64,000 nucleotides of DNA from Glaciimonas sp. PAMC28666 (lineage in GTDB: Bacteria > Pseudomonadota > Gammaproteobacteria > Burkholderiales > Burkholderiaceae_D). Where the stretch lies: contig NZ_CP070304.1 in the NCBI RefSeq assembly GCF_016917355.1, positions 2,604,001 through 2,668,000 of the forward strand. Direction: 5' to 3'. Shown here in pieces: positions 36,056 to 59,714 of this stretch. The notes beneath the pieces were generated by a model. The model was not told the origin of the DNA and searched no databases. It worked only from the letters and a program-made list of their open reading frames with translations. Numbering within the stretch: the stretch's first letter is position 1; each line of letters starts with the position of its first letter. The translations under genes were made by a program, and so were the position numbers.

Positions 36056-36131
36056 GCTGGCTTAGCTCATCTGGTAGAGCACCTGACTTGTAATCAGGGG
36101 GTGGCGGGTTCAAGTCCTGCAGCCAGCACCA
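36056..36131 (+). tRNA. tRNA-Thr (anticodon TGT)
   Basis: A 76-nt cloverleaf: acceptor strands GCTGGCT and AGCCAGC pair fully; the 3' end is ACCA (CCA encoded). The anticodon stem CCTGA/TCAGG encloses CTTGTAA with TGT at 36089-36091, and the T arm has GGTTCAAGTCC. TATAAT at 36033-36038 is the likely -10 box. An integrase gene begins just beyond its 3' end, marking this tRNA as the integration site. Confidence 0.97.
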
Positions 36132-36137
36132 ATATTT

Positions 36138-36171
36138 AAAAGGCCCACAGCTATGTGGGCCTTTTTCTTTT
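36138..36171 (+). terminator. rho-independent terminator after tRNA-Thr
   Basis: AAAGGCCCACA pairs with TGTGGGCCTTT over a short loop and is followed by TTCTTTT. It lies 7 bp beyond the tRNA CCA end, so it would travel with the integrated element if the crossover is at the tRNA 3' end. Confidence 0.9.
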
Positions 36172-36202
36172 GTTCCGCAAAACGGCGTTTGTTCCGCAAA
36201 AC
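36170..36202. repeat. 14-bp direct repeat beside the integrase (possible arm sites)
   Basis: TTGTTCCGCAAAAC occurs at 36170-36183 and again at 36189-36202, between the tRNA terminator and the integrase stop codon. Paired short direct repeats in this position are typical of integrase arm-binding sites; binding itself is inferred. Confidence 0.5.
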
Positions 36203-36203: not shown

Positions 36204-37232
36204 TCATTTTGTTGGCTTAACCAGCTTTCCTCTGCGATGTCGGACGTAGCGTGCTGTCATGGTCGCTGTAGCATGTCCCAGCTGATCTTGGGCTGCAGAC
36301 ATACCGCTAATCTCCTCTTTATCAGTCCCCGCTTTTGCCCGTAGGTCTCGGAACTGGAATTCCTTTATCGCTTTGGCTAGTTCCGGATGTGTGTCGGTGG
36401 CGATCTCTCTTGCACGGGTGAATAAACTGCGCAAAGTAGAGGCGTTCATTGGATAACCGAGTTTGTTATTGATGATGATCATACTTGTCGCCTTCCGACC
36501 GTATGCCCGTTCAATAACAGTTTCCAGATCGCCTTCAATTGCGATACGTAATTTTTTGCCAGTTTTGTTTTGCTCAATATGCAGCGCGCCATCTTTAATA
36601 TCATTTCGTGAAAGCTTGAGCACATCAGCAGGGCGCTGTCCAGTTAAGTAGGCTAGGTCGAGTGCGTCCCGCAATGGTTCTTCAGCGGCATCCCAGACCG
36701 CACGATATACCGCATCACTAATATAGACGTCCCGCCCGGCTTCTCGAAAGCCTTTGATTCCTGCACACGGATTCGGTTTGTTGGTTAAGCCCGTCTGTCT
36801 TGCAAAATTCCAGATATGACTAAATAAGGCCTTTTCACGATTCGCGCCCACTTTGGAAGTGTGCCGCCAGTCCAGGTATTGTCGAATATTGAGCGGTTCT
36901 ATGCTATCGAGAGGGGCAGGTGGGTCATCATAAAATTTATATAACCATGCCAGTTCCAACAGATTGTTTTTTTGAGTGCGTGGCGCTTTTTGTGGCAGAA
37001 CCTCTCTTTGATACCGTTCGGCCACATAACGAAACGTGATCAAATCAGAACGATGGTCGTTACTAACTGTTAATTCGGCCCATTTTTTTACAGCCAGCAC
37101 GTAATCTGAACCGAGGCCTATTTCCTTGCGAGGTCGTGCGCCGGTATCGAGATAGTAATAAATTTTTGTCTTGCGGTGGCGTGCGCGCATGCCAGCCGGA
37201 AGATTCTTGTTTCTGGTAGGTGTACGGCCCAT
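36204..37232 (-). CDS. int: Phage/island tyrosine integrase
   Basis: A 342-residue site-specific recombinase. The N-terminal region is an arm-binding domain, followed by a core-binding domain (about residues 65-150). The catalytic residues are visible in AYLTGQRPADVLKL (Arg), NKTGKKL (Lys), QFRDLRAKAGT (Arg, with Arg in the usual His position) and LGHATATMTARYVR (His, nucleophilic Tyr). The ATG at 37232 (MGRTPTRNKNLP) is preferred over an upstream frame start. It lies 72 bp from the tRNA-Thr 3' end, its probable attachment site. It is the last gene of a long minus-strand phage operon. Confidence 0.95.
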   Translation of the reverse strand: MGRTPTRNKNLPAGMRARHRKTKIYYYLDTGARPRKEIGLGSDYVLAVKKWAELTVSNDHRSDLITFRYVAERYQREVLPQKAPRTQKNNLLELAWLYKFYDDPPAPLDSIEPLNIRQYLDWRHTSKVGANREKALFSHIWNFARQTGLTNKPNPCAGIKGFREAGRDVYISDAVYRAVWDAAEEPLRDALDLAYLTGQRPADVLKLSRNDIKDGALHIEQNKTGKKLRIAIEGDLETVIERAYGRKATSMIIINNKLGYPMNASTLRSLFTRAREIATDTHPELAKAIKEFQFRDLRAKAGTDKEEISGMSAAQDQLGHATATMTARYVRHRRGKLVKPTK

Positions 37233-37234
37233 AG

Positions 37235-37435
37235 TTATTTCGCCCTCAAAACACTTGGTACCCAACCGCGCTTAACCGGCTCTTGCTTACCGCCTTCAAT
37301 GGTGGAGCGGGCAATCACTGGTCGTCCGACTGCATTGACGAAGAAAGGCAGTCCCATCTGTTGAAGAGCCCTGACTTGGTGACCTTTCATTTTTCGGCCA
37401 GTCAACGTCGTAATCTCGCTTTCACTTAAAAACAT
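37235..37435 (-). CDS. DUF4224 small phage protein (possible excisionase)
   Basis: A 66-residue protein starting MFLSESEITTLTGRK, the signature of the DUF4224 family found directly before integrases in proteobacterial prophages. The helix-turn-helix-like pattern and location suggest a recombination directionality or control role; this is inferred. Its stop is 3 bp from the integrase start and its start overlaps the preceding gene by 14 bp. Confidence 0.8.
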   Translation of the reverse strand: MFLSESEITTLTGRKMKGHQVRALQQMGLPFFVNAVGRPVIARSTIEGGKQEPVKRGWVPSVLRAK

Positions 37436-37640
37436 GTCGTTGCTCCAGATTTATTAGCGAATATAATTTTTCAAGAGAAACTGTATGAACAATTTGCGCT
37501 GGATATGTAGTGATATTTATCAATGCAAATTGCTCACCGTTGGAGATGTCGCGCCTGATAGCCATGACCTCGCCAGTGTGGAAGCCATGGTCATTTTCAA
37601 AATCAACGACCGCGCCAATGTCAGGTATAACTTTATCCAA
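37422..37640 (-). CDS. hypothetical phage protein (72 aa)
   Basis: A 72-residue frame starting at TTG 37640 with GGGAGCTGGGA just ahead as ribosome site. The sequence (PDIGAVVDFENDHGFHTGEVMAIRRD) looks like a small beta-rich domain; no family was recognised. It overlaps genes on both sides by 8 and 14 bp, which supports it as a coupled member of the operon. Confidence 0.55.
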   Translation of the reverse strand: MDKVIPDIGAVVDFENDHGFHTGEVMAIRRDISNGEQFALINITTYPAQIVHTVSLEKLYSLINLEQRHVFK

Positions 37641-37824
37641 TCCCAGCTCCCCACAACATTCCGTTCAGCAGGCTGTACATCACTGCCCCAGTCAGCACCC
37701 CGTTAATCACGGCATGGAAGCGCAGTTTCCATCGATCAAGCATCAAGTGCAGGGCATCAGAAATCCCCCGTATTGCAAAAAACATAAATAAAAAGACGCA
37801 CGTCTGCATAAGCAATCTCATCAT
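37633..37824 (-). CDS. small membrane protein (63 aa)
   Basis: A 63-residue protein with two hydrophobic segments (LLMQTCVFLFMFFAIRG at the start; VINGVLTGAVMYSLLNGMLWG near the end) separated by a basic loop, so two membrane helices are likely. Its ATG overlaps the gpA stop (ATGA). No family recognised; position suggests a phage accessory protein. Confidence 0.55.
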   Translation of the reverse strand: MMRLLMQTCVFLFMFFAIRGISDALHLMLDRWKLRFHAVINGVLTGAVMYSLLNGMLWGAGIG

Positions 37825-39665
37825 TCCTTCCTTTCATCAAAAATTCGGGGATAAGGACAGGCATTCAGCGCTGCCCATGCATCAATGAGCTCGGATCTGG
37901 ACTCCAGAGGGAATTTACTCACATCAGGAAACGACCAGTCCGGCTGTTTTTCTCTCGGCACCGGTTCGGGGTGCGTACAGTTATTTACACGAGTCCGAGG
38001 AAGGGCAACTGCCGCCCCGTCGCATGCGGTGGCTGCCGATGCAACTGGCGTCCAACTATGCCGTACCGACTTAAACACCACCCCAAACAAGGCCGCGCAA
38101 TGCACGCCGTACGGTGTCGATTTGATCGTCTCGCCATAGCGTCCGATGCAGGTCGTGACATCCTTGGCCAGCGTAATGATCAGATCCTTACGGGCCACGA
38201 TGGGACCGCCTTGTGCCCGCATATACTCGGCAAAGTCAGCGCGTTTGCTGGTCACTTCGTCGCCTTCAATTTTTTGCGCGGCATTCCATGCACGACGCAT
38301 CGGTTCCGGTGCTTCCACCAGCATGTCGTCTTTAATCCGGCGTAATTCGCGCCAGACCGTGACCGGTGCACCGCCCCATTGCTGAAACTGACGGATGCCC
38401 CAGCATGCGGCCCATGCTTCAATCCGCGCCGACGGAACCAGTTCCACGTCGCCGACGCAATCCGGCACCACCACATAGCCGTCCTTGGTTTTATGTTCGC
38501 CCACATGCGCGCCGTCGATATTCTTCGCGACATATTTCGCGATATAACCGGCAGCGGTGCCCAGGTTCCAGTCAATTCGGACGACTTTCAGGCGGCGCTC
38601 AAATGCACCTCGCTCGCCACGTTCTGCGGTCCACGCATAACGTTTCATCAGGCGCGTCGCACGGCTGGCCACATCCACAATGTGCGGCGTTTTATAGTTG
38701 GCGGCTGATCGCACAAATAACAGCATATGCCAGTGCGGGGTGGCGTCGTGATGCGGCTCGGCAATCCGAAAGCCATACAACCCAATCCCGCGTCGAGCCA
38801 GTGCGGACCGGAAACGCGCCGTTACTTTTTGCAGATACGCATTTGCTTCTCGGGGTGTAGCCCCGCTAAACTTCGGGTTCGGCTTGCCGTTATGCAACGT
38901 CGCATGAAAGTGAGATGGACAGGTCCACGTCACAAACAAGCCTTCATCGCCCAGTTCTTTTGCAATCGTTTCAAAGCCATTTAATCGCAGCATCAACTCT
39001 CCTCGTCGTATCGCCTTATTTGCCGTGGTGGTACCGGCCAGTTCAGCCAGCGTGAATTGCTGACCAAGTTCGTTTTCTAATTTTTGGCCGTCCAGCGCCA
39101 GTTCGTTACGGCGGTTTTGCGCCAGTCGGGCGATCACCGTGTCGTGGCTGGCATAGGGTTCGCCGTGATAGTGGACATAGCCGAGGCGGATGTTGCCCGC
39201 CTCAAAGGCCCGACCGATGCGCTTACGTAACTGACCGCGCCACCAGTGCGGATTCACCGCCCGTGCGATCACATCTTTGAGTTCGTCAAATTCCGGTGCA
39301 TCAATCCCGTATTCGGCACATTCGCAGCGGATGACCTGCAACGCATGCAGGTCCGATTGCGCGCCCCATAGCGCCTCGACCACATGCGCCGCCGCTTTCT
39401 TCGCCGTTGCCACAATGTCCGCATCGTGCTGCGACAGATCAACACCAGCGGGCACATAGCGGTCGGCAAACTCGCGGACAAAGTCCGTTGCCACCGACTC
39501 ATAAATTTTGTACCAGGAGGACCACGCCATTTTGTCGAGTGCCTGACCGATGACGCGCTTGCGCCACTTGTAAGGCAACCGCGCCAATTCCGGCGCAAAG
39601 CGTTCCGATTGTAAAAAAGAAAGGTGCCGTTGACGGGCTGGCAGAACGACGTGTTTAGACTGCAT
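37821..39665 (-). CDS. P2 gpA-type replication initiation endonuclease
   Basis: A 614-residue HUH-superfamily nickase of the phage replication gene A family. The metal-binding HUH motif is PHWHMLLFV near residue 310 and the paired tyrosines are in YIAKYVAKNID near 373. P2 gpA nicks the phage origin, joins the 5' end through a tyrosine and drives rolling-circle replication; it acts in cis and cuts within its own gene. Full length with no break. It overlaps neighbours on both sides (11 bp upstream, 4 bp downstream). Confidence 0.93.
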   Translation of the reverse strand: MQSKHVVLPARQRHLSFLQSERFAPELARLPYKWRKRVIGQALDKMAWSSWYKIYESVATDFVREFADRYVPAGVDLSQHDADIVATAKKAAAHVVEALWGAQSDLHALQVIRCECAEYGIDAPEFDELKDVIARAVNPHWWRGQLRKRIGRAFEAGNIRLGYVHYHGEPYASHDTVIARLAQNRRNELALDGQKLENELGQQFTLAELAGTTTANKAIRRGELMLRLNGFETIAKELGDEGLFVTWTCPSHFHATLHNGKPNPKFSGATPREANAYLQKVTARFRSALARRGIGLYGFRIAEPHHDATPHWHMLLFVRSAANYKTPHIVDVASRATRLMKRYAWTAERGERGAFERRLKVVRIDWNLGTAAGYIAKYVAKNIDGAHVGEHKTKDGYVVVPDCVGDVELVPSARIEAWAACWGIRQFQQWGGAPVTVWRELRRIKDDMLVEAPEPMRRAWNAAQKIEGDEVTSKRADFAEYMRAQGGPIVARKDLIITLAKDVTTCIGRYGETIKSTPYGVHCAALFGVVFKSVRHSWTPVASAATACDGAAVALPRTRVNNCTHPEPVPREKQPDWSFPDVSKFPLESRSELIDAWAALNACPYPRIFDERKE

Positions 39666-40012
39666 GCATCACCCGTTCAAACATACCGACCGAGGCCACG
39701 ACCGCCGCCCGGATTGCGGCCCGTTCCGATGGGGTAAAAGAATGAATCGGACTTTGCCACCGCGTCATCGGTAAACCAGCCACAAACAGCACATAACGCC
39801 GTGCATGCTCTGGTGTCGTTCCCCACGATTGCGCCGTCAGGCGTTGCAAGCGCGACGCATCCTGACGTGGCTTGATCAACTGACGCGCAGCTAATAATTT
39901 GGCCCGTGCATGATCCGGGGTCGTCAGCGTGGCCGTTGCGCCATCCCACTCGGCAAACAAGTCTGTGACCGGCATAAACGACGGATGGTGATCAATCAGC
40001 GAAACGCCCATC
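39655..40012 (-). CDS. hypothetical phage protein (118 aa)
   Basis: The start ATG at 40012 overlaps the preceding stop (TGATG), giving 118 residues beginning MGVSLIDHHPSFMPVTDLFAEWDG. The C-terminal half is helical and rich in Arg/Ala. No family was recognised. It directly precedes gpA with an 11-bp overlap. Confidence 0.6.
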
Positions 40013-40184
40013 ACCAGACCGCCGCCATGCCACCCAACCGCGCAATACAAAGGGCCAGCTGTTCATCCAGCACCTCGCACACCGCCACGCGATGGCTGTC
40101 GTTCAACAAATGCGACCGCGACATAAACCAGTTGCGCAGGTCCAGTTTGTCGATCAGGACGGCGTAGGTGCTTTTGGTGAACAT
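40011..40184 (-). CDS. hypothetical phage protein (57 aa)
   Basis: A 57-residue frame (MFTKSTYAVLIDKLDLRNWF) from 40184 to the TGA at 40011. It follows the 32-residue membrane peptide after 3 bp and overlaps the next gene by 2 bp, consistent with a compact phage operon. No family recognised. Confidence 0.55.
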   Translation of the reverse strand: MFTKSTYAVLIDKLDLRNWFMSRSHLLNDSHRVAVCEVLDEQLALCIARLGGMAAVW

Positions 40185-40421: not shown

Positions 40422-40679
40422 TTAGTCATTCCGGAATAAAGCCAGCTGATTGGCACACGCGTTTCGGACGTGCTGCGACAAATGGATTTGTACATCCGGG
40501 TTCGGCATCGCAGACATCGACAACGTACGCAATACTTCGAGACTCGCCACAAAGGTATGCCCACAGTCCGGGTTCTGGCACATGTACGTGATCTCTTTCA
40601 TCAGGGTCGACATCGTGCGGCTTTTAGCGGCGCGCACACGGTGTTGGCAATGGGGGCAAGGTAAGCTAATGACCCTCAC
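40422..40679 (-). CDS. Ogr/Delta-family zinc-finger transcription activator
   Basis: An 85-residue protein with the Ogr/Delta zinc pattern: CPHC near residue 8 and CQNPDCGHTF near 34. P2 Ogr and satellite P4 Delta activate P2 late promoters. Here the gene lies inside the early/replication operon, as in satellites and some phiCTX-like phages. The start is GTG at 40679, overlapping the upstream stop (GTGA). Confidence 0.85.
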   Translation of the reverse strand: MRVISLPCPHCQHRVRAAKSRTMSTLMKEITYMCQNPDCGHTFVASLEVLRTLSMSAMPNPDVQIHLSQHVRNACANQLALFRND

Positions 40680-40822
40680 TTTGGTAGTCTGCCGACCGGA
40701 TACAGTACTTGGCCTTCCCCAGATATTTGTTTCGATCGCTTACGCAAATGCGACTTAACAAGCCACTCTAACGCAAGCTCTACAGAGTGCAGCTCTTGCA
40801 GATGACGTACGTGGTGCAACAT
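40676..40822 (-). CDS. hypothetical phage protein (48 aa)
   Basis: A 48-residue frame (MLHHVRHLQELHSVELALEW) with AAGGA 8 nt before the ATG at 40822, starting 12 bp after the stop of the RHH gene and overlapping the Ogr-like gene. Basic C-terminal half. No family recognised. Confidence 0.5.
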   Translation of the reverse strand: MLHHVRHLQELHSVELALEWLVKSHLRKRSKQISGEGQVLYPVGRLPK

Positions 40823-40834: not shown

Positions 40835-41068
40835 TTATTGATGACTGGGAAATGGTATTCGGCTAGAAGGCTTAGCCAAATGTGCAGTATTTTGTTCATA
40901 GGCATCCAGGCCGAGTAACGCGACCATGGGAAGGAAATTGGCACGTGAGCGCCTTTCATTAAAAACATGTCGTTCCACCCGCGCCGTCTCGTCGCTTCTT
41001 AACCGGATGTGCGAGGGGCCATTCAGAATATTTTTCGGTGAACGACTCATTTTATTAGCTATTCTCAT
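40835..41068 (-). CDS. small ribbon-helix-helix-like DNA-binding protein
   Basis: A 77-residue protein whose central segment (SHIRLRSDETARVERHVFNE, then RSRANFLPMVALLGLD) has the strand-helix-helix pattern of Arc/MetJ-type regulators. It is the first gene of the minus-strand phage operon and is divergent from the repressor, the place of Cox/Cro in P2-like switches. Family assignment is by pattern only. Confidence 0.55.
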   Translation of the reverse strand: MRIANKMSRSPKNILNGPSHIRLRSDETARVERHVFNERRSRANFLPMVALLGLDAYEQNTAHLAKPSSRIPFPSHQ

Positions 41069-41138: not shown

Positions 41139-41777
41139 ATGGATGATTTTGCGAACCTATTTGGCGGTAGACTCCGAGATGAACGCAAGCGTCTAGCTCT
41201 GAATCAAGATAATTTTGCAGCTACTGGTGGTGTGAACAAGGCGACCCAAATTTCGTATGAAAAGGGAAAGCGCTCTCCGGATGTTGCATATATGCATGCA
41301 ATTTCGTCTTTAGGAGTCGATATTGCCTATATCTTGACAGGCAAAAAAATACGCACTGAGATATCAAGGGAAGAAAACATTTTGCTCGGCGCTTACAACG
41401 AGGCGCCGTTAGCTGTCCGGCAAGCTGCCTTGGCGGCATTGATTTTTGGTTCTGGGCGTCAAACATTTAACGAAAATTATTCAGGTGTCGAGCCAGTACG
41501 GAATAATGTATTGGAGGTCAATATTGAGGAAGAAGTCTACGAATCATTCTCTGAGATAGCGCTACTGACTGGGGAATCGATACCTGATACGATCAGAATG
41601 TTAGTTATTAAGCGTGCAAAAATACTTTTGGCGGAGGTTGACCCATTGGCACTAGAAACTATAACTAAAGCCGCCGCAAAAGATATGGAAGCGCGTCGTA
41701 TTAATCGAGACAATAAAATAGAGAATCAATCCGTTACGAACAGTAGTGGAGCGAAAAAAAGTACGTCCTCGGATTGA
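41139..41777 (+). CDS. HTH (XRE-type) phage repressor-like protein
   Basis: A 212-residue protein with an N-terminal helix-turn-helix domain (LRDERKRLALNQDNFAATGGVNKATQISYEKGKR, residues 11-45) typical of phage repressors of the XRE class. The C-terminal half lacks a recognisable S24 peptidase site, so it is probably not cleaved by RecA. It is divergent from the operon it presumably represses. No good ribosome site precedes the ATG. Confidence 0.8.
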   Translation: MDDFANLFGGRLRDERKRLALNQDNFAATGGVNKATQISYEKGKRSPDVAYMHAISSLGVDIAYILTGKKIRTEISREENILLGAYNEAPLAVRQAALAALIFGSGRQTFNENYSGVEPVRNNVLEVNIEEEVYESFSEIALLTGESIPDTIRMLVIKRAKILLAEVDPLALETITKAAAKDMEARRINRDNKIENQSVTNSSGAKKSTSSD

Positions 41778-42145
41778 AATTTACTTGTTGGTTCCTTAGT
41801 TCTCTACACCTCGAAAATATAAGAGTGTCAGTTTGGCTACCGCGATGAACTTCAAAAAAATGGTTGCACAGCGAGGGCGAACATTTTTTAATCGCGTAAA
41901 AAAATTCTAAAATTTTGAGGTATTCAAAGATCTGGAACGATGGTAATCCGATCATATTGGTTCGTCCGTCGCTATTCGGAGTGGAGTCGATGACCTTGCA
42001 AACATTGCAAAATCTATTAATTGACGAACTGATTAAGGCGTAGTGTGGGAATGGCGATAGATATCTAATTGTAAGGTCGCGTATATGGTCGACCAGGTCT
42101 GCCAACGGTCAATTACTTTATGAGTTGTCTCAGGTGATTCCCTAG
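41778..42145. other. gap between the repressor and the IS element
   Basis: This 368-bp AT-rich stretch shows no convincing gene. A 17-codon plus-strand frame (MTLQTLQNLLIDELIKA, near 41990) resembles the start of YciE/YciF-type DUF892 proteins but stops at once, so it may be a remnant. A 123-codon minus-strand frame overlaps the repressor end and looks spurious. Confidence 0.4.
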
Positions 42146-43364
42146 GGAAGCGCTGATTTATTCGACAGAAATGGTTTCGGTGATTTACAGAAGCTGAGAC
42201 AATAATGTATCCCTTTTCATTGACGAATCGTTTATGCAAAAAAGCTTCTCCGACCTTGAGTACGCGGCAAAAAAAGAAACGTACGCGGCGTGACCGTTTC
42301 CTGAGCGAGATCGATACAGCTACGCCCTGGGCGGCACTGTGGAACGAAATTGAACCGTTTTATCCGAAAGGCGAAGGTCCTGGTCGCCCGCCCGCCGATT
42401 GGTCTTGCACGGATGCTTCGGATGTATGTTGCACAGCCGTGTTTTGGTTTGTCTGACGAGGGCATTGAGGATGCGATTTACGACAGTCAGGCGATCCGCG
42501 GTTTTGTCGGTATCGATCTGAACCGGGAGTCGGCACCGGATGCCACGACACTGTTGAAATTTCGCCGTCTGCTGGAAAAGCATGACCTGACCCGCAGGAT
42601 TTTTGAGGTGATCAATGCGCATTTGGCCGCCAAAGGTTTGCTTATGCATGAAGGGACCATAGTGGATGCCACCTTGATTGCTGCGCCACCATCGACCAAA
42701 AACAAGGATAAGACTCGCGACCCGGACATGCATCAGTCGAAGAAAGGCAATGACTGGCACTTTGGCATGAAAGCCCATATCGGCGTTGATGCTGCCTCTG
42801 GGCTGGTACACACCGTGATCGGAACGGCTGGCAATGTGTCTGACGTGACGCAAGCGCATGCATTGCTGCATGGCGATCAGATTGCAGCGCTGGGCGATGC
42901 GGGCTATCAAGGGGTGGAAAAACGCGAAGAAAATAAAACCCCCTCCGTTACCTGGCACGTCGCGATGCGCCGCTCCAAACGCAAGGCGCTGCCGAAAAAT
43001 AAACTCGGGCGCATGCGCGAGAAACTGGCGTTTCTCAAAGCCAGCGTCAGGGCAAAAGTGGAGCATCCGTTTCATGTCATCAAGAACCTGTTTCGGCATC
43101 GTAAAACGCGCTATCGGGGCCTGGCCAAGAACACTGTGCAGTTGTTCTCGCTGTTCAGATTTGCCAATCTGGTGCTTGCTGGCAGGCGCTTTGTGATCAA
43201 TGACACCCGAAAACCATCCTGAGTGAAGCAAGGGACGATAAGAGCGTCATATTTGCTCAAAAAACCGTTTGTTGCGCTCATGGTTGCAGAAACTCAACCG
43301 TGGGTGAAAATTTTATTTTTAAAACTAACGCCATGATCAAGATCATCAATTGATCAGCGCTTCC
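42146..43364 (+). mobile_element. IS5-family (IS5 group) insertion sequence
   Basis: A 1,219-bp element with terminal inverted repeats starting GGAAGCGCTGAT at both ends, flanked by the 4-bp direct repeat CTAG (42142-42145 and 43365-43368). This matches the YTAR-type target duplications of the IS5 group. It encodes one transposase, broken by frameshifts. It lies 50 bp outside the last repeat of the CRISPR array. Confidence 0.92.
42234..43222 (+). pseudogene. IS5-group transposase, frameshifted
   Basis: The product begins MQKSFSDLEYAAKK and is typical of IS5-group transposases, with catalytic DDE segments GTIVDATLI, IGDAGYQG-like ALGDAGYQGVEKRE and the C-terminal RAKVEHPFHVIKNLF. The reading frame breaks twice: at a run of seven A residues near 42271 (one extra A), and near 42385 where a CCCG unit appears duplicated. 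The catalytic part alone is open from 42350. Either the IS is dead or there are sequencing errors in simple repeats. Confidence 0.85.
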
Positions 43365-43592
43365 CTAGGACGTTTGCAGGACGACTTTCATGCTGCCCCT
43401 ACCAATCTATCGGGTTACTTCTAAGCCGCGCGCATGGCGGCTGACGCTTGCTGGTCAGGGGTTGAACCACAAACCGCCGAAAATTCCGTTAGCCAGTCAA
43501 CTTAGACCTGTACGCCCAGTTCCCGCTAATTGCTCAAGCGGCTCACGTCTTAGCCACACTCAAGTAAGAAAAAGTGCATGAGTCCAATTTTT

Positions 43593-51228: not shown

Positions 51229-52272
51229 CTATTTTTCCGTAACTATTTGATTTTTATGAATATTTTCGATGATACAAGATTTGATGTTTTCGATCAGGGT
51301 ATCGATGACTTCGGCTTGCAGGCATTGATCTATTAATTCATTACGAAACTCTTGGTCTGTCGCGTTACCAGAACCCATCTCGAAGGCCAAGGGCATAACA
51401 ATCGCATCTTTGAAAAGGTCAGCAACGTCAAAAACTAGTGCCCCGCGTCTAGTTTTTCCGTGCAATACCGGTAACGCAAATGAAATGCCTAAGGCATAAA
51501 TCGCCACGGCAGCGTATCCATAGGCAATATAATTTCCATGATCAAGGAAAGAATTAATTCTCTCTTCGGGCGATCCCTTTCCTCGCTTTCCACTTTCGCG
51601 TTTAAATCCATTAGCTTCGAAGGCAGAGCGCAGTCTGGCGTAAAGCATCCGTGACCAAACTGCTTCTGCTGACAACATTTCATCTGTAGTTTGGGCTCGC
51701 TGAACTGCAAGTTCAAACTTCTGTGTGTCAGCATCGTCTATGCTTGCAGAAAGAGACGATAATACCGGATTTTTTTTCCATGCAGTTTGTACCCATTTTG
51801 ATCGAACCGCCATGAATTGACGGCCCATTGCGAGACGTCTTGGTTCTTCGAGCCACATGCGCATCCAGTCTTGCATGTATTCAGTGGGGCGATATTCACT
51901 CTGTGGCGTCATAAACACAGGATCGACGGCACTAAGAAGTGGTGAACCGCCTGTTCCCACAAAACCGACCATGACACCGCTTTCTGCCAATAGTCTGACG
52001 GCCGATTCAGTGATCGATGTACCAAGACCCAGTAGCAAGAACGCAGTATTTTTATATGGAATGTTAAAGAACTGTTCAATTTCTTCCCCACGTTGTGTGA
52101 GGAATAGGAGACGACCGTCTTTTTGCATGACCCGCGCACGCTCTATCAAAAACGCATTTGCGCGCTTGCTGAGTAGAATGGCCCGCGATGTGGGATCAGA
52201 TTTTTTAAGCCCTGACGTCGGTTTCAATCTGTTGCTACCGGTTCGGTATTCGTCATCCTTCCCACTGGCCAT
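51229..52272 (-). CDS. cas1: Cas1 integrase, subtype I-F
   Basis: A 347-residue Cas1f. Markers include LLSKRANAFLIERARVMQKD, LLLGLGTSITESAVRLLAES, and the catalytic region ERINSFLDHGNYIAYG and LPVLHGKTRRGALVFDVADL (His and Asp). With the Cas2 part of Cas2-3 it inserts new spacers at the leader. It overlaps cas6f by 49 bp, placing it last in the minus-strand operon rather than first, as in the standard I-F order. Confidence 0.95.
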   Translation of the reverse strand: MASGKDDEYRTGSNRLKPTSGLKKSDPTSRAILLSKRANAFLIERARVMQKDGRLLFLTQRGEEIEQFFNIPYKNTAFLLLGLGTSITESAVRLLAESGVMVGFVGTGGSPLLSAVDPVFMTPQSEYRPTEYMQDWMRMWLEEPRRLAMGRQFMAVRSKWVQTAWKKNPVLSSLSASIDDADTQKFELAVQRAQTTDEMLSAEAVWSRMLYARLRSAFEANGFKRESGKRGKGSPEERINSFLDHGNYIAYGYAAVAIYALGISFALPVLHGKTRRGALVFDVADLFKDAIVMPLAFEMGSGNATDQEFRNELIDQCLQAEVIDTLIENIKSCIIENIHKNQIVTEK

Positions 52273-52862
52273 GCATCTTCGGGAGTGACTGGCAACGCAA
52301 AACGTCTGGTAAAAACTGATAACCCATATACGTCAGGTTCAAACGTCACCAGTGTTCCTTCCGCGCATAGTGCTGTTTCGTGATGAATTGGCTTGAGGAA
52401 CAAACTGAAGCCATGACCAGATGTTGAGCTATTAAGTCGCAGATGTGGAAGTGAATCTGCTTCCGCCATGCGCTTGGCACGTGACGCTTCCAGTCGGCTT
52501 TTTCGATTCGGCACACGGTATCGTCGATACTCAACGAAGGCAGTTGGTTTGAAATCAGAAGGTAGCACTTTGACCCTACCGATATTGACATAGTCACGGA
52601 TGAACTGCTGCTTCTCCAGTTCATCTGCCAGTGTTTCAAGTGACTCGCGTGCCAGCGCAAACACTCTTGCATGATTTCCAGGACTTGGTCGCGCACCTAT
52701 TTTTGCCTGAGGGAAAGCCACTGCGTGCTTAAACCCCTGACGTGCTGCGATCGCATGTGTGAATTTAATGAGCAGCGCCATGACATCATGCGCCGTACCA
52801 TTTGGGCGATCTGACTTGAGCGATGAAATTACGCGCAGGTCAATATAAGCCTGCGGTTGCAT
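52224..52862 (-). CDS. cas6f: Cas6f/Csy4 crRNA endoribonuclease
   Basis: A 212-residue Cas6f that cuts pre-crRNA below the repeat hairpin and stays bound to the 3' stem. The N-terminal ferredoxin-like half (YIDLRVISSLKSDRPNGTAHDVMALLIK) holds the likely catalytic His; the Arg-rich helix (RRYRVPNRKSRLEASRAKRM) matches the RNA-binding helix of Csy4. It overlaps cas7f by 1 bp and cas1 by 49 bp. Confidence 0.92.
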   Translation of the reverse strand: MQPQAYIDLRVISSLKSDRPNGTAHDVMALLIKFTHAIAARQGFKHAVAFPQAKIGARPSPGNHARVFALARESLETLADELEKQQFIRDYVNIGRVKVLPSDFKPTAFVEYRRYRVPNRKSRLEASRAKRMAEADSLPHLRLNSSTSGHGFSLFLKPIHHETALCAEGTLVTFEPDVYGLSVFTRRFALPVTPEDAWPVGRMTNTEPVATD

Positions 52863-53989
52863 CAGGACACCTCGCCTTGTGCTTCGTTTGCTTCATTATC
52901 CATGGTCGATTCTGTCTTGGCGTTAGCTTTTACTTCTGCCTTCTCGGAGCCGCCGCTGTAGACGCCACCGCGAATCATCGAACCAATGCAGAACATTCCT
53001 TCGGGCGAACTTGGATCGATCTGATTCAGCCTCGACAACATACTGAAGGCAGTCGATTTTCCACTGCGGAAAAAACTCATCAAGTCGATGGAGGCACCAT
53101 TGGGTTCCACCGGTAGCGGTTTTCCAACGATATCAAATGCATCGTACCAGGTATCGATCGTACGGAGGCGGTTACTGATTTTTTGATCACGCAAGGCCGC
53201 TTGTCCCATCACTGTCTGGTGATCGATGCCGTTGGCGTGAGGTACCTCTGCGGTCAGCTTGTAGAGCGGTCGAGCGAAGCCTTTTGGTTTGTTTTCAACA
53301 TAGGCTTGGGAGGGATAGACTTCGACGGCGCCTTTCACGCCAAAATCTACGCGTGCCATCACTTCAATGGCGGCATCGCGATTTCCCCTCAGTCCGTCGG
53401 CGATGATTTCTGATAATGTTATTTCGTCGGCACTGTAATCGCCGAAGGAGGACAACGGAATACCGAGGGCATTGAATGTCAGCGTGTTTCCGTTAAAGAT
53501 GGTGGTGATCGACACCGATTTTGCGAGCACCCGGTTGCGCCACAGGAAGGACCCGTTGGCAACATTACGTGCGATTCGGCGCGATACTTCCTTCAAGCCG
53601 TCGCTGGATTTCGCCCGTGCTACAAAGTCGACAACGCTTTCACGTACCAATTTGGCTAGTTCCCGATCTCCTGAGGCACATGCAAAAAGGGCGCTATCCA
53701 GATCGACCATGCGCAAGCCGAATTTCACGACTAACGCATCAGCGCGATGGTCGAGTAACGCCGTTTCTGTTTGTTGAATATTTGAAACGTCACGATCTTT
53801 CGTACCTTTGGCAGTATCGCCTGCTTCGCTCACGTTTTGTGTGCCACGCAATCCGTGGCGCACTACGTAAAGCGGTGAAAGGTCGTTTTGACCTGCTATA
53901 TCATTAAAAAATGCACCCGCGCTCACGATCATTGAACGCTGAAAGGAAAAAACGCTGGGAACCTTGGAAAATGTTTGTGTGCTAGTCAT
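52862..53989 (-). CDS. cas7f: Cas7f/Csy3 backbone subunit
   Basis: A 375-residue Csy3, six copies of which coat the crRNA spacer in the Csy complex. The N-terminus TQTFSKVPSVFSFQRSMIVS and the segments FGLRMVDLDSALFACASGD and VEVYPSQAYVENKPKGF-like AVEVYPSQAYVE are characteristic. AGGATACC before the ATG at 53989 supports this start over an upstream frame to 54055. Confidence 0.94.
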   Translation of the reverse strand: MTSTQTFSKVPSVFSFQRSMIVSAGAFFNDIAGQNDLSPLYVVRHGLRGTQNVSEAGDTAKGTKDRDVSNIQQTETALLDHRADALVVKFGLRMVDLDSALFACASGDRELAKLVRESVVDFVARAKSSDGLKEVSRRIARNVANGSFLWRNRVLAKSVSITTIFNGNTLTFNALGIPLSSFGDYSADEITLSEIIADGLRGNRDAAIEVMARVDFGVKGAVEVYPSQAYVENKPKGFARPLYKLTAEVPHANGIDHQTVMGQAALRDQKISNRLRTIDTWYDAFDIVGKPLPVEPNGASIDLMSFFRSGKSTAFSMLSRLNQIDPSSPEGMFCIGSMIRGGVYSGGSEKAEVKANAKTESTMDNEANEAQGEVS

Positions 53990-54041
53990 GTTGGTATCCT
54001 GAAAAAATGCACTACAAGTTGAAAGTTTGGCCTGATTTAGC

Positions 54042-54845
54042 TCAATGCCCAACAAGGAAAACGCGTTCGGAGGGTCTTTCGTACTTCCACGTCGGGATAA
54101 ATGTATCTTTTAAGGATTTGAGCTGGACCAGTCCGACCAGCGGTTCGGCAAAAGCATGCGGATGTCCATCGCGGGTCCAGACACGATCACGAATGTCAGT
54201 CACGGTAACGAACCCCATCGTTGCTGGCATTAACCATGGCGAGGCCTGGCGTTGTTCGGTTGTCGGCAACGTCGCACTTAACAAGGCATCCAATGCGTCT
54301 TCCCCCTCTGCAGGCACCATCAGGTCATTTCGCGCATGTAATGCAAAACCGGTTTTGAGATGATTTTTTACCTCTCGCATGTTTTCGAGGGTGATTGGCT
54401 TTGGCGAGTCCATTGCCACTGCACCACCCGCCATACGGGCGTTGCGCAGAAAAATTTCAACGTAATCCATATTGACACTTGCACCTTCGTCAAATACGAT
54501 CGCCAGTGATACGGTCATATCGCACCGGGCAGTGGGCTGAAGCGAAAGCGCGTTCTTGTTTTTAGAAGAATAATCGTCAGTATTAATCAAGGCGGCAGCG
54601 CGCAACTGGTGAGGAAGTAACGAGTACGCTCCGTTGACTTTCTCGGCGCGCAGGCGATAGTCATGAATGACCGTACCGACACCTATAAATTGATGTGCCA
54701 ACTCCGGTGGCAGGCATTTCAAAGCCAACGCCTGTCCGAATCCGACGTAGGCAGTGGGGCTGGGTGGGGCGAGAAACCACCACGCAGAGAGAGCATTGGC
54801 GCCGGTGACTTCCATGCGTGGCAGCAGGACGATAAAACGGCTCAT
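54042..54845 (-). CDS. cas5f: Cas5f/Csy2 subunit
   Basis: A 267-residue Csy2 that caps the 5' handle of the crRNA together with Csy1. Family features include the start MSRFIVLLPRMEVTGANALS and the segment AFAEPLVGLVQLKSLKDT near the C-terminus. It is on the short side for Csy2 (often about 300). It overlaps cas8f by 4 bp (ATGA). Confidence 0.92.
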   Translation of the reverse strand: MSRFIVLLPRMEVTGANALSAWWFLAPPSPTAYVGFGQALALKCLPPELAHQFIGVGTVIHDYRLRAEKVNGAYSLLPHQLRAAALINTDDYSSKNKNALSLQPTARCDMTVSLAIVFDEGASVNMDYVEIFLRNARMAGGAVAMDSPKPITLENMREVKNHLKTGFALHARNDLMVPAEGEDALDALLSATLPTTEQRQASPWLMPATMGFVTVTDIRDRVWTRDGHPHAFAEPLVGLVQLKSLKDTFIPTWKYERPSERVFLVGH

Positions 54846-56020
54846 CCGACCACCTCTTCAGCATCCGAGATGAGTGCCGATAGTTCGCCATCCCCACTGA
54901 CTACGTATTCGTTTTTTCCATCCTTGAATTTGAACCGCTCAATGCTGCTGATGAGCTTGCGGGCGAAGTCTTTTTTGAAGTTTCTGTCGCGCAACGTCGG
55001 GTCGATCATCGCTCTCAAAAAAGGATCTAGCGTTGGTGTGGTGAGTCCGTTGATATGCTCCAGATTCTGCTCAAGAATATGACGAGCAGAGGCTGCGGCA
55101 GCTAGGGCTGCACAAGCAATTGCGTGAATATGCGTAACCTCCTTTAACCGGATGGCTGCGTTACTAGGCATTGCTTGCGCATTTGCGTTACGCATTCCGT
55201 GTCGCCAGAGTGCGAAGGCCAGCGTTTCTTTATAGGGTGCAGCGAAGGCAAGACCCCGCAGATGGCCTTTGAAGTGCAGAGCATAAGCAAGACGAACGCT
55301 TCGGTCTTCTTTTGGTGCGTCAAATACTAATGGGCGCTGCATGGATCGCACATACCGCCCGACATTTTGGGGATTCGATCCACCGATGCCGAGGATGGCA
55401 TCGCGTCGATTGATACTGCTTTTGCCGTTTTTCTGATTAATATGTCGCGCTTTTTCAATTACCAGTCGGTTACGAATTGCTTCACTGAGACCACTGCTTT
55501 GCAGTGGCGTTAAAGCGATCCATGGCATTGATTTTTCGCCACTAGGCCATAGAACTTGACGTAAGCGAGGATCGATGAATCCAGTGCCGACCGAGGCAGC
55601 AGATAACATCAATGGCCCCATTTGTTCAACCATGGCGCGCTGCTCGGGATCTATATTTGTGAATAAGTCGTCACAAGTTTTATCAAGAATGCTGGTAATT
55701 TGTTTAAGCGGACCAGCGTCTGTGGCACCCAGCACATAATCGACCGGAATGCGCGCACTATCTAGGGTACTGATAGCGACAAAAGGAAGAGAAAGTCGTT
55801 CTGCCGAGCTCACGCGTATACCGACCGCCGAAGCATTCGAATTAATACTTTTCGAGGAAAGATGCGATGCTGTCTTGATCGATTTCAGACAAGCTTCTCT
55901 CGTTAGCGTCGGCCATATCTTTTTCTCGATAGGTTTTACTAGTTTTAGTTTTGGCACCTTCGGCACCCTCACAACACCAGATTTTTTAACCTGCCTCGGA
56001 ATTTCGTCAGGCTTTAACAT
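54842..56020 (-). CDS. cas8f: Cas8f/Csy1 large subunit
   Basis: A 392-residue Csy1. It is expected to read the PAM and help recruit Cas2-3. The segment SNPQNVGRYVRSMQRPLVF-type GGSNPQNVGRYVR is a Csy1 marker, as is FARKLISSIERFKF near the C-terminus. The first 60 residues are Lys/Ser-rich. It is first in the minus-strand operon cas8f-cas5f-cas7f-cas6f-cas1. Confidence 0.92.
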   Translation of the reverse strand: MLKPDEIPRQVKKSGVVRVPKVPKLKLVKPIEKKIWPTLTREACLKSIKTASHLSSKSINSNASAVGIRVSSAERLSLPFVAISTLDSARIPVDYVLGATDAGPLKQITSILDKTCDDLFTNIDPEQRAMVEQMGPLMLSAASVGTGFIDPRLRQVLWPSGEKSMPWIALTPLQSSGLSEAIRNRLVIEKARHINQKNGKSSINRRDAILGIGGSNPQNVGRYVRSMQRPLVFDAPKEDRSVRLAYALHFKGHLRGLAFAAPYKETLAFALWRHGMRNANAQAMPSNAAIRLKEVTHIHAIACAALAAAASARHILEQNLEHINGLTTPTLDPFLRAMIDPTLRDRNFKKDFARKLISSIERFKFKDGKNEYVVSGDGELSALISDAEEVVG

Positions 56021-56510
56021 GGGTTTTCTTCCAATCTTTGTATTGTGAGTGATATCATTGTTACAACAACATAGTAATGTATTTTGTATATTATTGAATG
56101 GTAATTTTTCAATATTTTTTTATCACTTTAGTATGACTTAATTTTCCTCGGCAATGACAAATCACAATGGAAACATTTCCTTTGAAGTGGCCTTTGGCAG
56201 CAACGCCAATCAACGTGTCTGGCGGATTCTCAAAGCTTCAAAGGATCGCTGATCTGAATAAATCCACTTGGATTTCTCAAGGGAAATTTCGTCGAGTGTA
56301 AAAATTATTGGCCATGAATTGCCACTTGCATCGAAAGGCGGATCAAAAGGAGGCGGGACTAATCAATCGGCCATGAAATAACATAGTTATGGTTTATAAA
56401 AATAGTTGAGATATCCACGAACTCCAAATTTGTTCTTGTGATCGTACCGTCGGAGATGGCACGATCTGGGTACCGCTAACGCATTGAAAACCAATTGAGC
56501 AAAACCTCCC
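56021..56510. promoter_or_regulatory. divergent control region between cas8f and cas2-3
   Basis: This 490-bp gap separates the two divergent cas units and must hold both promoters. The part next to cas8f is strongly AT-rich. A 32-codon plus-strand frame (56154-56252, MTNHNGNISFEVAFGSNANQ) is present without a good ribosome site; its status is unclear. Confidence 0.5.
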
Positions 56511-59500
56511 ATGCATATCGTGCTTGTGTCGCAGTGTGAAAAAAAAGCTATCCTCAGAACGGCTAAAGTCCTTGATGCCTATGCAGTCCGGCACGGTGAT
56601 CGTACCTGGATAACGCCCATTACAAAGAACGGGCTCGATGCACTTTACCTGGAGCTACGCAGTCGCGGCACCCGGCAAACAGCCGTTTCCTGCTACGTCA
56701 ACGACGGCAAACGTAGACTCAAACTGTTATGGGTGGTAGGCAGGAAAGGAACTTTCGGATTGGGCGGTGCCGTTGCCGTAGCGACCAAAGAGCACTCCCA
56801 GAAAAGCCAGATGCCAGCGCTTTCTGCTGCTGCGCGTTTAGCTTGTCTGCTGGCTGAATGTGCCGGCTTGATTCACGATTTTGGCAAATATGGAGAGGTT
56901 TTTCAAAAAAAACTCGACTCGCTAATCCCGTCAGGAGATCCTATTCGCCATGAGTGGATCTCATTGCAGGTATTGCTTGGCCTCTTTGAGGGGAAAAGCT
57001 GGACCGAAAGCTGGTGTCGTACGAGACCTTTGCGTATGCCAGAATACCTCACCCACGCCCATGGCATAGGCAAAGGGTTGAACACTGTCGAGGCCGTGCT
57101 GGCTTTCTTAGTGATGTCGCATCATCGCCTGCCCAGATGGCAAAAAGGCGGTCGCGGCAGCACTGCTAGCCCATCCGTTCCAAGCGACGGGGAGTACTTT
57201 CGAGATGATGCGTGCCGTCCTGATGGCTCAGAAAGCAGAGCGAATCCATTTCTCCGCCAACCAACCTTGTTGGCGGCAAAACGTGTCGAGCATTTGCTAT
57301 CGAGAATTCGCCAGTACGCCCTGCCCGACACCAGTCCTGAAGCACTTCGTGCGATTGCATCACTTGCCCGCATGGCACTCATTCTTGCCGATCATCACGT
57401 CTCTGGTATTGATAAAACGCAGTCAGAAGGACATGGGCCTCATTTAGAGGGGCTCGAGGGAGCGGTATTCGCCAACACACATAAACATGGCGGCCTCCGG
57501 CTGAAGAATCAAGAGTTGGGCTGGCACCTAACCCAAGTTGGAAATGAAGCTGGCGCAATGGTTCAACGCATGTTGTCATTCCGGCCGCCTGGGTTGAGCG
57601 GTGATGCAATTGTCATCCTCCGAAAAAGGTCTGGTGACCGCTTCCAATGGCAAAACCTATGTGCCGATGAAATCGAGAGGGTTCAATCAGAGCGGTTTCT
57701 TCCGACACTTGTAATTAATATTGCGGGAACGGGGAGCGGGAAAACGCGCATGAACATGCGCGCCGTAGCGGCATTGCATCCTCCCGGTAACGATGGTTTT
57801 CAGGAGCCTCTTCGGGTCGCCGCCGCACTCAACTTACGCACGCTGACGTTGCAGACGCGAGACGCTTATGCGGAGCAACTAGGATTAAATAAAGAGCAGT
57901 TGGCGTGTGTCATGGGAAGTCGTATTGCTATTCAACTACATGATGCTGGAAAAAAAACTGCGGAGCTGTTTGACGAAGATGAAAATGAGCCTGAAGAATT
58001 ATTCGATTTCGAAGGTGGAGGTGTTGAACCACCGGATTGGTTAAAGGGATTCCTGGATAAAAAGCCAGTTTTGCAACCGTTGCTTATGTCTCCGGTCGTT
58101 GTGTCCACTATCGATTTTCTTATTAATGCAGGTGAACCTAATAAGCAAGGGAATCATGGTCTCGCTATGCTGCGTATGATGCACAGTGACCTCATCTTGG
58201 ACGAAATTGATGCCTACGATCCAAAGGCGATGGTTGCCGTCGCACGGTTGGTCACTGCATCGGCTATGTGGGGACGTCACGTTATTGCCTCTTCCGCGAC
58301 ATTGTCCGCTCCCGTTGCAAAGGTGCTTTACGAGGCTTTTGCGCTTGGGGTTCGTTTGTACAATGCCCTCCACGAAAAACAAACCACATGGCGTCAAGTT
58401 GTCATTGATGACCGAGTTGCACCATTGATTTTATCTAGCGCTACGGATGTTACGTTTATAGAAGCTTTTAACGACCATCTCCATTTGATGATGGCTTCAA
58501 TGGGTAATCAACTTTTCCGTCCGGCAGAATTACAAAACGTCTCGCGTCATGGAGGGACTAAGGACGGTGAAAAGCACTTCTTTGCTGGCGTGGAGGCGGC
58601 TTGTCTTCGCTTACAAGAGCGGCATGCATGGGCCGCGCCGAAGAATGCTGCCGGTTTCACCGGAAAAATATCGATAGGACTCGTTCGGGTCGCTAACATT
58701 CGTATTGCCATTGCGATAGCGCGGCGTTTGGCAACAATCCTGCCCCATGTGCGGGTGTGTTGTTACCACTCGCAGGTTGGGTTGCTCCAGCGTTGGAATA
58801 TTGAACGCACGCTTGATCAAATTCTTACTCGTAAAGCAGATGAATGGGCATCCCACACGGTTCAAAATCCTTTCGTCCTTGAGGCTCTGTACAGAGCAGT
58901 GGAAAAGGGCGAAAACCGCGTTCACTTCATCGTTATTGCGACCCCGGTCGAGGAAATTGGTCGTGATCACGATTTTGATTGGGCAGTTATTGAACCGTCC
59001 AGTTCTCAATCCATTGTACAAACATCTGGTCGGGTCAATCGACATCGTCTGGCCAATGTGGACACCCCTAACATCGCAGTCTTGCAATTCAATTACAGGA
59101 CTTGCGTGCAACAGGAAGGGGTGCCGGTATTTTGCCGCCCGGGCCTTGAATCAGATGAAAGTTTTGGTGACGATGGCAAAAGTGATTATGGTGATCATGA
59201 TCTGGCAAAACTGGTAAATTGGTCGACCTTGGAGAAGGCCGGCCAGATTGATGCACGTTTGCGATATCAGACACAGGTGCATCCTTTCGCAGGTGCGGAT
59301 GACCGTGCCCTTAACGTTGCAGTACAGCGCCATATGAAGAATTTCACGACGTCCAATGAATGCGCCTGGCTTATAAAAGATACCTATACAAACGCGCCAT
59401 TGAGGGACAAAAACGGGGCCACCCATGAAGAGTGGTTCATTGATGAAAATGGGGCTTACTTCAAGCGTGAGCCCAGGGGAAGAATCGGGTGGGGCTTCGA

Positions 59501-59714
59501 AGATACTCCCAGAAGTCCAAATGATATCGTTCCGACGCACCATAATGATTGGCTTGTTTTGTCTTTTGATGAGACATGCGCTCTCGCAAAAAAACATGGA
59601 ATTGCAATCAAGGCCGCAACGTCCGTGCAGGTGCTGTCATATGGTGATAGCGGCGAAACGCTTATGTTGAAGGATTGCTCGTTTGGATACTCAACCAAGC
59701 GAAACAAAGCGTAA
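56511..59714 (+). CDS. cas3: Cas2-3 fusion: adaptation/effector nuclease-helicase
   Basis: A 1,067-residue I-F Cas2-3. Residues 1-90 are the Cas2-like domain (MHIVLVSQCEKKAILRTAKV). An HD nuclease domain follows (GLIHDFGKYGEVFQKKL near 120). The SF2 helicase has Walker A AGTGSGKTRMN (about 404), DEID Walker B LILDEIDAYDP (about 561), SSATLS and motif VI QTSGRVNRHR (about 836). It degrades targeted DNA and supports Cas1 in adaptation. It is transcribed away from the csy genes, unlike the usual cas1-cas2-3-csy order. Confidence 0.96.
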   Translation: MHIVLVSQCEKKAILRTAKVLDAYAVRHGDRTWITPITKNGLDALYLELRSRGTRQTAVSCYVNDGKRRLKLLWVVGRKGTFGLGGAVAVATKEHSQKSQMPALSAAARLACLLAECAGLIHDFGKYGEVFQKKLDSLIPSGDPIRHEWISLQVLLGLFEGKSWTESWCRTRPLRMPEYLTHAHGIGKGLNTVEAVLAFLVMSHHRLPRWQKGGRGSTASPSVPSDGEYFRDDACRPDGSESRANPFLRQPTLLAAKRVEHLLSRIRQYALPDTSPEALRAIASLARMALILADHHVSGIDKTQSEGHGPHLEGLEGAVFANTHKHGGLRLKNQELGWHLTQVGNEAGAMVQRMLSFRPPGLSGDAIVILRKRSGDRFQWQNLCADEIERVQSERFLPTLVINIAGTGSGKTRMNMRAVAALHPPGNDGFQEPLRVAAALNLRTLTLQTRDAYAEQLGLNKEQLACVMGSRIAIQLHDAGKKTAELFDEDENEPEELFDFEGGGVEPPDWLKGFLDKKPVLQPLLMSPVVVSTIDFLINAGEPNKQGNHGLAMLRMMHSDLILDEIDAYDPKAMVAVARLVTASAMWGRHVIASSATLSAPVAKVLYEAFALGVRLYNALHEKQTTWRQVVIDDRVAPLILSSATDVTFIEAFNDHLHLMMASMGNQLFRPAELQNVSRHGGTKDGEKHFFAGVEAACLRLQERHAWAAPKNAAGFTGKISIGLVRVANIRIAIAIARRLATILPHVRVCCYHSQVGLLQRWNIERTLDQILTRKADEWASHTVQNPFVLEALYRAVEKGENRVHFIVIATPVEEIGRDHDFDWAVIEPSSSQSIVQTSGRVNRHRLANVDTPNIAVLQFNYRTCVQQEGVPVFCRPGLESDESFGDDGKSDYGDHDLAKLVNWSTLEKAGQIDARLRYQTQVHPFAGADDRALNVAVQRHMKNFTTSNECAWLIKDTYTNAPLRDKNGATHEEWFIDENGAYFKREPRGRIGWGFEDTPRSPNDIVPTHHNDWLVLSFDETCALAKKHGIAIKAATSVQVLSYGDSGETLMLKDCSFGYSTKRNKA

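Follow-up and report, generated by a model that had tools for sequence, protein, structure and literature searches.

Gene content of the tRNA-Thr locus

The window is the whole 64,000-nucleotide stretch of Glaciimonas sp. PAMC28666 that was analysed, positions 2604001–2668000 of a single-contig genome of 5,230,360 bp (G000, the source genome), and window-equivalent coordinates are used for features that extend beyond its end. At a tRNA-Thr gene in this window lies an element derived from a P2-like prophage, with a type I-F CRISPR-Cas locus (clustered regularly interspaced short palindromic repeats and their associated genes) inside its two attachment (att) sites. Its features, including every open reading frame (ORF) discussed below, are as follows:

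36056–36131, + strand: tRNA-Thr(TGT), its 3′ part forming attL (ARAGORN)
36204–37265, − strand: tyrosine integrase (int A), 353 amino acids (PF00589, phrog_1)
37235–37435, − strand: DUF4224, excisionase-like protein (xis) (PF13986; phrog_8896, a PHROG excisionase family)
37821–39665, − strand: P2-type gpA replication endonuclease, 614 amino acids, frame open (PF05840, 7.5e-75; phrog_91, 3.5e-147)
39655–40050, − strand: 131-amino-acid ORF, conserved before gpA in the source genome's P2-like prophage
within frame 40425–40739, start codon not fixed, − strand: Ogr/Delta-type zinc-finger late-gene activator (PF04606, 4.8e-18)
41139–41777, + strand: repressor-like (C) helix-turn-helix protein, divergent from the replication genes (phrog_8 and other PHROG regulators)
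42142–43368, + strand: IS5-family insertion sequence (IS), transposase at 42350–43222 (PF01609/PF05598)
43418–43445, − strand: last (trailer-end) CRISPR repeat, separated from the array by a transposon
43458–47498, + strand: Tn3-family transposon inside spacer 61, TnpA at 44411–47467
47526–51156, − strand: CRISPR array, 61 of 62 repeats (28 nt), spacers of 32–33 nt, leader side next to cas1
51229–52272, − strand: cas1 of type I-F (TIGR03637, 6.4e-108)
52224–52862, − strand: cas6f (csy4), divergent, below the NCBIfam cut-off (PADLOC I-F model)
52862–54055, − strand: csy3 (cas7f) (TIGR02566)
54042–54845, − strand: csy2 (cas5f) (NCBIfam and PADLOC matches)
54842–56020, − strand: csy1 (cas8f), divergent (PADLOC PDLC01425, 7.3e-31; no NCBIfam match, Pfam below cut-off)
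56511–59714, + strand: cas2/3 fusion (TIGR02562, 6.5e-202)
59822–60132, + strand: remnant of a P2-type portal gene (Q), a pseudogene with stops, 1-bp indels and a 32-bp deletion
60287–60443, + strand: non-coding DNA, conserved with the stretch beyond the portal gene in the P2-like prophages of G000 (73% over 157 bp) and G004 (81% over 146 bp)
61163–62926, + strand: TpsB-type outer-membrane transporter (ShlB/FhaC; PF03865, POTRA)
62945–64000 and on to window-equivalent 71377, + strand: TpsA exoprotein resembling filamentous haemagglutinin and contact-dependent inhibition (CDI) proteins, 2810 amino acids (TPS, ESPR, Fil_haemagg_2)

A first-pass annotation, made from the letters of the window, had placed an integrase, a DUF4224 protein, a P2-type gpA and an Ogr/Delta activator at tRNA-Thr, and all four were confirmed by Pfam profiles (PF00589, PF13986, PF05840 and PF04606, respectively). 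Of the divergent repressor/ribbon-helix-helix switch described there, the repressor-like ORF was upheld by PHROG matches, whereas the ribbon-helix-helix part was unconfirmed, as 41139–41777 matched no Pfam family. The int, xis, gpA, Ogr and C reading frames are all open. A stretch spanning the start of the DUF4224 gene (37417–37446) recurs upstream of the repressor at 40950–40979 (80% over 30 nt), which may reflect a control site common to both or a piece of another xis copy.

Boundaries of the element

The 3′ end of tRNA-Thr is part of a 51-bp direct repeat without any difference between its copies, at 36085–36135 (attL) and window-equivalent 72581–72631 (attR; genome C1:2676581–2676631), giving an att-to-att size of 36,496 bp. 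The attR copy is outside of the window and holds no tRNA (ARAGORN), while int A directly adjoins attL. A pattern search of the genome for the tRNA-Thr 3′ end returned two exact copies, the recurrence being at genome 2676607–2676627, and one distant copy with three mismatches. The first-pass annotation had predicted an attR downstream of the window, which is where it was found, and had taken an attR before 42.1 kb as an argument against a mobile element with CRISPR-Cas; no second copy occurs inside the window at ≤3 mismatches, and the sole other exact genome copy is at 72.6 kb. A position of attR within the window was therefore rejected; a scan with 15-mers gave 6 matches with the tRNA itself counted (2.1 expected, largest shuffle 6). 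Because the second, unchanged copy of the 51-bp repeat lies beyond the window, the I-F locus is inside one att-bounded element, and the earlier suggestion of a mobile element carrying CRISPR-Cas was borne out to the extent that the locus sits within a tRNA-integrated, att-bounded unit.

Beyond attR, another integrase (type B) survives as an N-terminal remnant, followed by an EamA-type transporter (named by eye). A third, degenerate att-like stretch with a terminator occurs 2.3 kb past attR (genome 2678971–2679047; window-equivalent 74971–75047; 84.6% over 78 bp) and is likely the scar of an older integration.

Descent from a P2-like prophage

Comparisons within the genus used five genomes (G000, the source genome, and G001–G004), and P2-like prophages were compared for four of them (G000, G001, G003 and G004), with the G002 prophages left out. 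The gpA protein is most similar to that of G004 (96% amino acid identity), followed by a prophage copy in the source genome (2740187; 92%), G001 (86%) and G003 (83%), with more distant homologues in G002 (57% and 45%). Between Ogr and a point beyond gpA, the element is 86–88% identical in DNA to the P2-like prophage of the source genome, and on the far side of the CRISPR-Cas locus, 59862–60132 matches the portal gene of that prophage (75% over 273 bp). All four prophages share the order Q-P-N-J-FI-FII-T-D-ogr-gpA, of which the element keeps only the ogr-gpA end and the Q remnant end, in native order and orientation. P, N, J, FI, FII, T and D had no match in the element at 1e-5, and the gap from portal to C is filled by CRISPR-Cas and IS5, the portal remnant starting 108 bp after the end of cas2/3. 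The gpA, Ogr and C repressor genes are therefore present in prophage order, and capsid, terminase and tail genes were not found. On these comparisons, the ancestor of the element was a P2-like prophage of the genus.

The first-pass description of a module free of capsid, tail and portal genes holds for the seven genes from P to D, and has to be amended for the decayed portal fragment. The same annotation had offered, as an alternative, a decayed P2/phiCTX-like prophage that borders the CRISPR locus, from which the P2-like descent is retained; as the prophage parts flank CRISPR-Cas in native order, the prophage does not merely border it.

Phage relatives of the integration genes were also identified. 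The int A protein has 62% identity to the integrase of a prophage in a sister species (the G001 phage matched by spacer 13, below). An IMG/VR contig (L212) has the same order as the element, D-ogr-gpA (78%)-xis (37%)-int (50%), such that the int and xis of the element are of a type that also adjoins gpA in a P2-like viral contig.

The complete P2-like prophage of the source genome (~2706.2–2746.1 kb; 39.8 kb), located between trpG and trpE (by eye), has a portal, a terminase and a P2-family capsid. It starts ~30 kb past attR and is a possible helper. Two P2-type capsid genes occur in the source genome outside of the element, the second at 4617 kb. A cos site would be expected in the conserved DNA past the portal remnant (60287–60443), but no functional cos was found; this DNA had no match in G001 and G003 at 1e-3, and a search with a P2 cos motif gave none.

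The CRISPR-Cas locus

The IS and complete I-F system reported next to the phage module were both found, as an IS5-type IS and as cas1, cas6f, csy3, csy2, csy1 and cas2/3, and cas1, the cas2/3 fusion, csy1–3, cas6f and the 28/32 array place the locus in type I-F, adaptation genes included. The lone repeat at 43418 had been overlooked; with it, the array (43418–51156) comprises 61 spacers and 62 repeats, of which 3 are single-base variants, and is split by the Tn3 transposon. The transposon has 32-nt terminal inverted repeats (43458–43489 and 47467–47498, 94% complementary) and a 7-bp target duplication (43451–43457 and 47499–47505), and without it spacer 61 is 32 nt like its neighbours. Tn3 therefore entered a pre-existing array, and the transposon as carrier of the CRISPR locus was ruled out. 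Between its left repeat and TnpA (43593–44241) are one or two small ORFs, one of which (146 amino acids, signal-like start) matched no Pfam, PHROG or PADLOC family. The IS5 inverted repeats are near 42137–42162 and 43348–43373, with approximate ends.

A target was identified for one spacer. Spacer 13 matches a temperate prophage of the sister species around G001:C29:181162 at 30 of 32 positions with 5′-CC upstream as a putative protospacer adjacent motif, and spacers 14 (24/32, no CC) and 30 (22/32, CC) match within 0.6 kb of that site. Across the 35 kb of this prophage, the best score was 22 among 610 shuffled spacers and 23 among the 61 reversed ones. Spacers 13 and 14 thus score above either control, whereas spacer 30 taken by itself is within their range; spacer 40 also reaches 22, elsewhere in the 35 kb. 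In the source genome the spacer 13 seed occurs in the array only, and it is exact in one viral contig. The whole array had no match to INPHARED phages in distant mode (E up to 1). Against 194 kb containing four P2-like prophages of the genus, the best spacer match was 24/32, and because reversed spacers also reached 24, there is no sign of targeting of a P2-like helper.

Cas1-f was present in one of the five genus genomes, the source genome; across the family, 11 of the 392 genomes have it at E ≤ 1e-40. Relatives with the CRISPR locus at this site but lacking the phage genes, which the first-pass annotation had regarded as evidence against a mobile carrier, were thus not seen, in a genus where the source genome is the only one with Cas1-f. 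The best of the ten other family Cas1-f proteins has 49% identity (G075).

In gene order, cas1 is last, adjoining cas6f and the array, with cas2/3 divergent. Among the best 80 of at least 546 relatives, from which the named genome loci are drawn, cas1 follows csy3 or cas6f in 16 loci (L121–L136; 46–55% identity), and in the remaining 64 any cas2/3 match comes after cas1. At family level, the nearest relative, L064 of G075, is cas1-last as well, nine of the ten other loci have cas1 and then cas2/3, and one fragment has neither order. A Cas1 tree left out 6 of 92 loci with a stop in the match or <250 amino acids (L125, L128, L130, L134, L135 and L064, the closest family relative, itself cas1-last), and thereby held 15 of the 21 known cas1-last rows. 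These 15 rows form one group (support 100/100); the source Cas1 is on a long branch, for which the tool warned that the exact neighbour may be false. The cas1-last clade (L121–L136, L064 and L201–L203) occurs in Acinetobacter, methanotrophs, Acidithiobacillus, Tepidimonas, Thiobaca and others, and such scattered hosts suggest horizontal spread.

Viral contigs contributed three Cas1 relatives (L201–L203), two of which are IMG/VR provirus records (L202, 56 kb; L203, 52 kb). Both are Acinetobacter-like by Cas1 placement, with the cas1-last I-F locus and an integrase at opposite ends of the record, and in one of the two the integrase end abuts part of an apparent tmRNA gene (by eye; ARAGORN called none). 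As further candidates for prophage-borne CRISPR, L202 and L203 yielded no att pair.

TpsBA cargo and the tRNA-Thr site in the genus

The CDI-like TpsB/TpsA pair is located on the attR side of the portal remnant. It is followed by two small ORFs, which were examined for a CDI toxin tip and immunity gene and had no Pfam or PADLOC match. TpsB relatives were found in 5/5 genus genomes (52–62% identity to the element TpsB), and the TpsBA cargo is therefore of a local type.

In G003, the 20 kb examined next to tRNA-Thr are free of any island, with a terminator followed by MerR, aldo/keto reductase and trp genes (by eye), and in G002 the tRNA-Thr was located after sspB. Islands with the type B integrase occupy the site in G001 (~25 kb) and G004 (~36 kb), each bounded by a further att copy, and a degenerate piece of int A lies past att2 in G004. 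A PADLOC scan covering nine ORFs of these islands (L048–L052) identified BrxA, BrxB, BrxC, PglZ and BrxL, of the bacteriophage exclusion (BREX) system, in G004, and a type I methyltransferase with specificity subunit, an RT-Toprim and a PD-Lambda-4-like protein in G001. The site is a hotspot for defence islands in the genus, with the BREX and type I restriction-modification (RM) islands using a different integrase, type B.

Selection, decay and timing of integration

The ratio of non-synonymous to synonymous divergence (dN/dS) for gpA was 0.067 between the element and G004 (dS 0.346), 0.086 for G000 and 0.089 for G003, similar to the values of three pairs of prophages (0.062, 0.102 and 0.103). 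On the element branch, private codon changes in gpA comprise 22 synonymous and 6 non-synonymous changes with no frameshift. By these substitutions, purifying selection on gpA is strong. Identities of the portal remnant are 0.781 (G004), 0.745 (G000), 0.724 (G001) and 0.682 (G003), while functional portals range pairwise from 0.915 (G000–G004) down to 0.797, and a three-point estimate of divergence on the element branch gave 0.195 for Q versus 0.044 for gpA. The attR copy, which is free of tRNA constraint, has 0 changes in 51 positions; if it had been present throughout a neutral divergence of 0.10–0.15, as in the decay of the portal, the probability of no change would be 0.005–0.0003. Such an unchanged attR suggests that integration, or re-integration, was later than the loss of the virion genes.

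Proposed mobility of the element and competing explanations

The architecture is that of an att-bounded, P2-derived element with CRISPR-Cas inside, and the best explanation for it as a whole is a helper-dependent mobile element, favoured with modest confidence. It is slightly better than an even bet that the element is still, or was until recently, mobile without virion genes of its own. In the proposed cycle, the C repressor would keep the element silent; upon relief, excision by Int and Xis would use the two 51-bp att sites, and gpA would replicate the element by nicking. Virions would come from a resident or infecting P2-like phage, whose late genes Ogr may be able to turn on, and 36.5 kb would fit a particle built for ~39.8 kb. 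The CRISPR locus would pay its way by protecting host, element and helper from unrelated temperate phages. Packaging by a P2-like helper, taken by itself, is a tentative proposal that leans toward the unlikely. The same caution attaches to a more specific scenario, which has to be taken as one joint claim: a P2-derived satellite may have traded its virion genes for complete CRISPR-Cas plus a CDI-like weapon and yet stayed close to its helper in genome size (36.5 versus 39.8 kb), with replication by the satellite's gpA and transport in full-size particles from resident P2-like prophages, such that a memory of 61 spacers could spread between bacteria; as a whole this scenario is speculative.

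Several observations weigh against a mobile element. It is known from a single genome, and no cas match was found in the best 80 of 569 gpA-bearing viral relatives (flanks of ≤10 kb), of which 66 have P2 structural genes and 14, mostly short, do not. The IS5 and Tn3 insertions indicate an element stationary long enough to be hit, and the degenerate third att-like stretch makes the island a layered one. The portal-adjacent DNA is no better conserved than the pseudogene (0.73/0.81 versus 0.75/0.79 for G000/G004), and identities between other functional portal pairs themselves fall to 0.797. The identity of attR could be due to conversion between att copies or to excision and re-integration within one lineage, and the selection on gpA could be partly older than the decay, or the result of recombination with prophages.

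A serious contender, falling short of an even chance, is that a P2-like prophage at tRNA-Thr decayed, became a landing pad for CRISPR-Cas and TpsBA and is now a fixed chromosomal defence locus. The portal pseudogene and lost virion genes, the IS5 and Tn3 inside, the single occurrence among five genus genomes and the use of tRNA-Thr as a general island hotspot are all compatible with such an inert island, as are its parts of differing GC content (guanine plus cytosine; phage module, 0.516; cas, 0.493; TpsBA, 0.603). The flanks have a GC content of 0.504 and 0.528. Inertness is harder to reconcile with int, xis, gpA, Ogr and C all being open across ~3,990 bp, where ~46 indels would be expected had they accumulated as in the portal remnant (4 indels, by eye, along ~350 bp of alignment), nor does it account for purifying selection on gpA along the element's own branch or for the unchanged attR.

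It is improbable that the att pair belongs to another element, with the phage module and CRISPR inserted separately between the same repeats. Such accretion has precedents in the tandem or alternate tRNA-Thr elements of the genus (the type B integrase islands, carrying type I RM in G001 and BREX in G004), the remnants of int A past att2 in G004 and of int B past attR here, and the degenerate third att-like stretch, but the parts of the P2 prophage occur on both sides of CRISPR in native order and orientation, no att copy at ≤3 mismatches separates them and int A directly adjoins attL. The P4-like satellite with CRISPR-Cas in its defence hotspot, an idea drawn from the first-pass annotation, is scarcely credible: a tRNA integrase, an Ogr/Delta homologue and missing virion genes would fit, but the P4 alpha profile (PF03288) was not found in the genome (control matched in 3/14), the element measures 36.5 kb, whereas PMC8628076 gives such satellites a median of 10 kb, and the P2-type gpA and portal remnant show P2 descent (the Psu profile, PF07455, gave no match, yet its control also matched nowhere).

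Comparison with known systems

ICP1 is a phage with virion genes of its own. Its I-F CRISPR-Cas (PMC6452262) is alike in being a full I-F system in a phage-related element, used in conflicts between elements; unlike ICP1, the carrier here is without virion genes. The I-Fa locus of Acinetobacter baumannii is listed in PMC8825777 as Cas1, Cas6, Csy3, Csy2 and Cas3-Cas2, with Csy1 said to be missing, and likewise has cas1 next to cas6 and cas2/3 at the opposite end. As this order matches apart from Csy1, the cas gene order itself was already known. The two differ in host, in carrier and in the divergent csy1 present here. The cas1-last loci of other Acinetobacter species share one Cas1 clade with the present locus, the A. 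baumannii I-Fa having been compared by description only.

P4-like satellites, for which PMC8628076 gives sizes and PF03288 as the alpha profile used, resemble the element in a tRNA-type integration module, an Ogr/Delta homologue and no virion genes; they differ by a median of ~10 kb, and here alpha was not found and the replication protein is a P2-type gpA. Also comparable are the E. coli P2/P4 elements of Rousset et al. 2022 (PMC9122126), who describe defence hotspots of ~1–5 kb next to cos, and report large defence systems as missing from these elements, linked to packaging limits. P2-type genes, Ogr, helper logic and defence cargo in a phage-derived element are shared; here a 16.3-kb CRISPR-Cas stretch (Tn3 included) replaces the virion genes.

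No report of CRISPR-Cas in a P2-derived element was found in the open-access literature searched, a statement confined to that literature, and as cas was matched in none of the best 80 of 569 gpA-bearing viral loci, what is new here is a P2-derived element with its virion genes replaced by CRISPR-Cas. Relative to the P2/P4 hotspots, dropping the virion genes is a suggested way past the packaging limit on large defence systems, and a testable route by which a phage-derived element may carry a whole CRISPR-Cas locus along with its spacer memory. Its chromosome also carries a possible helper prophage, and with the att sites defined and one target phage identified, the element offers a directly testable case in which an immune system may travel in virus-like form.

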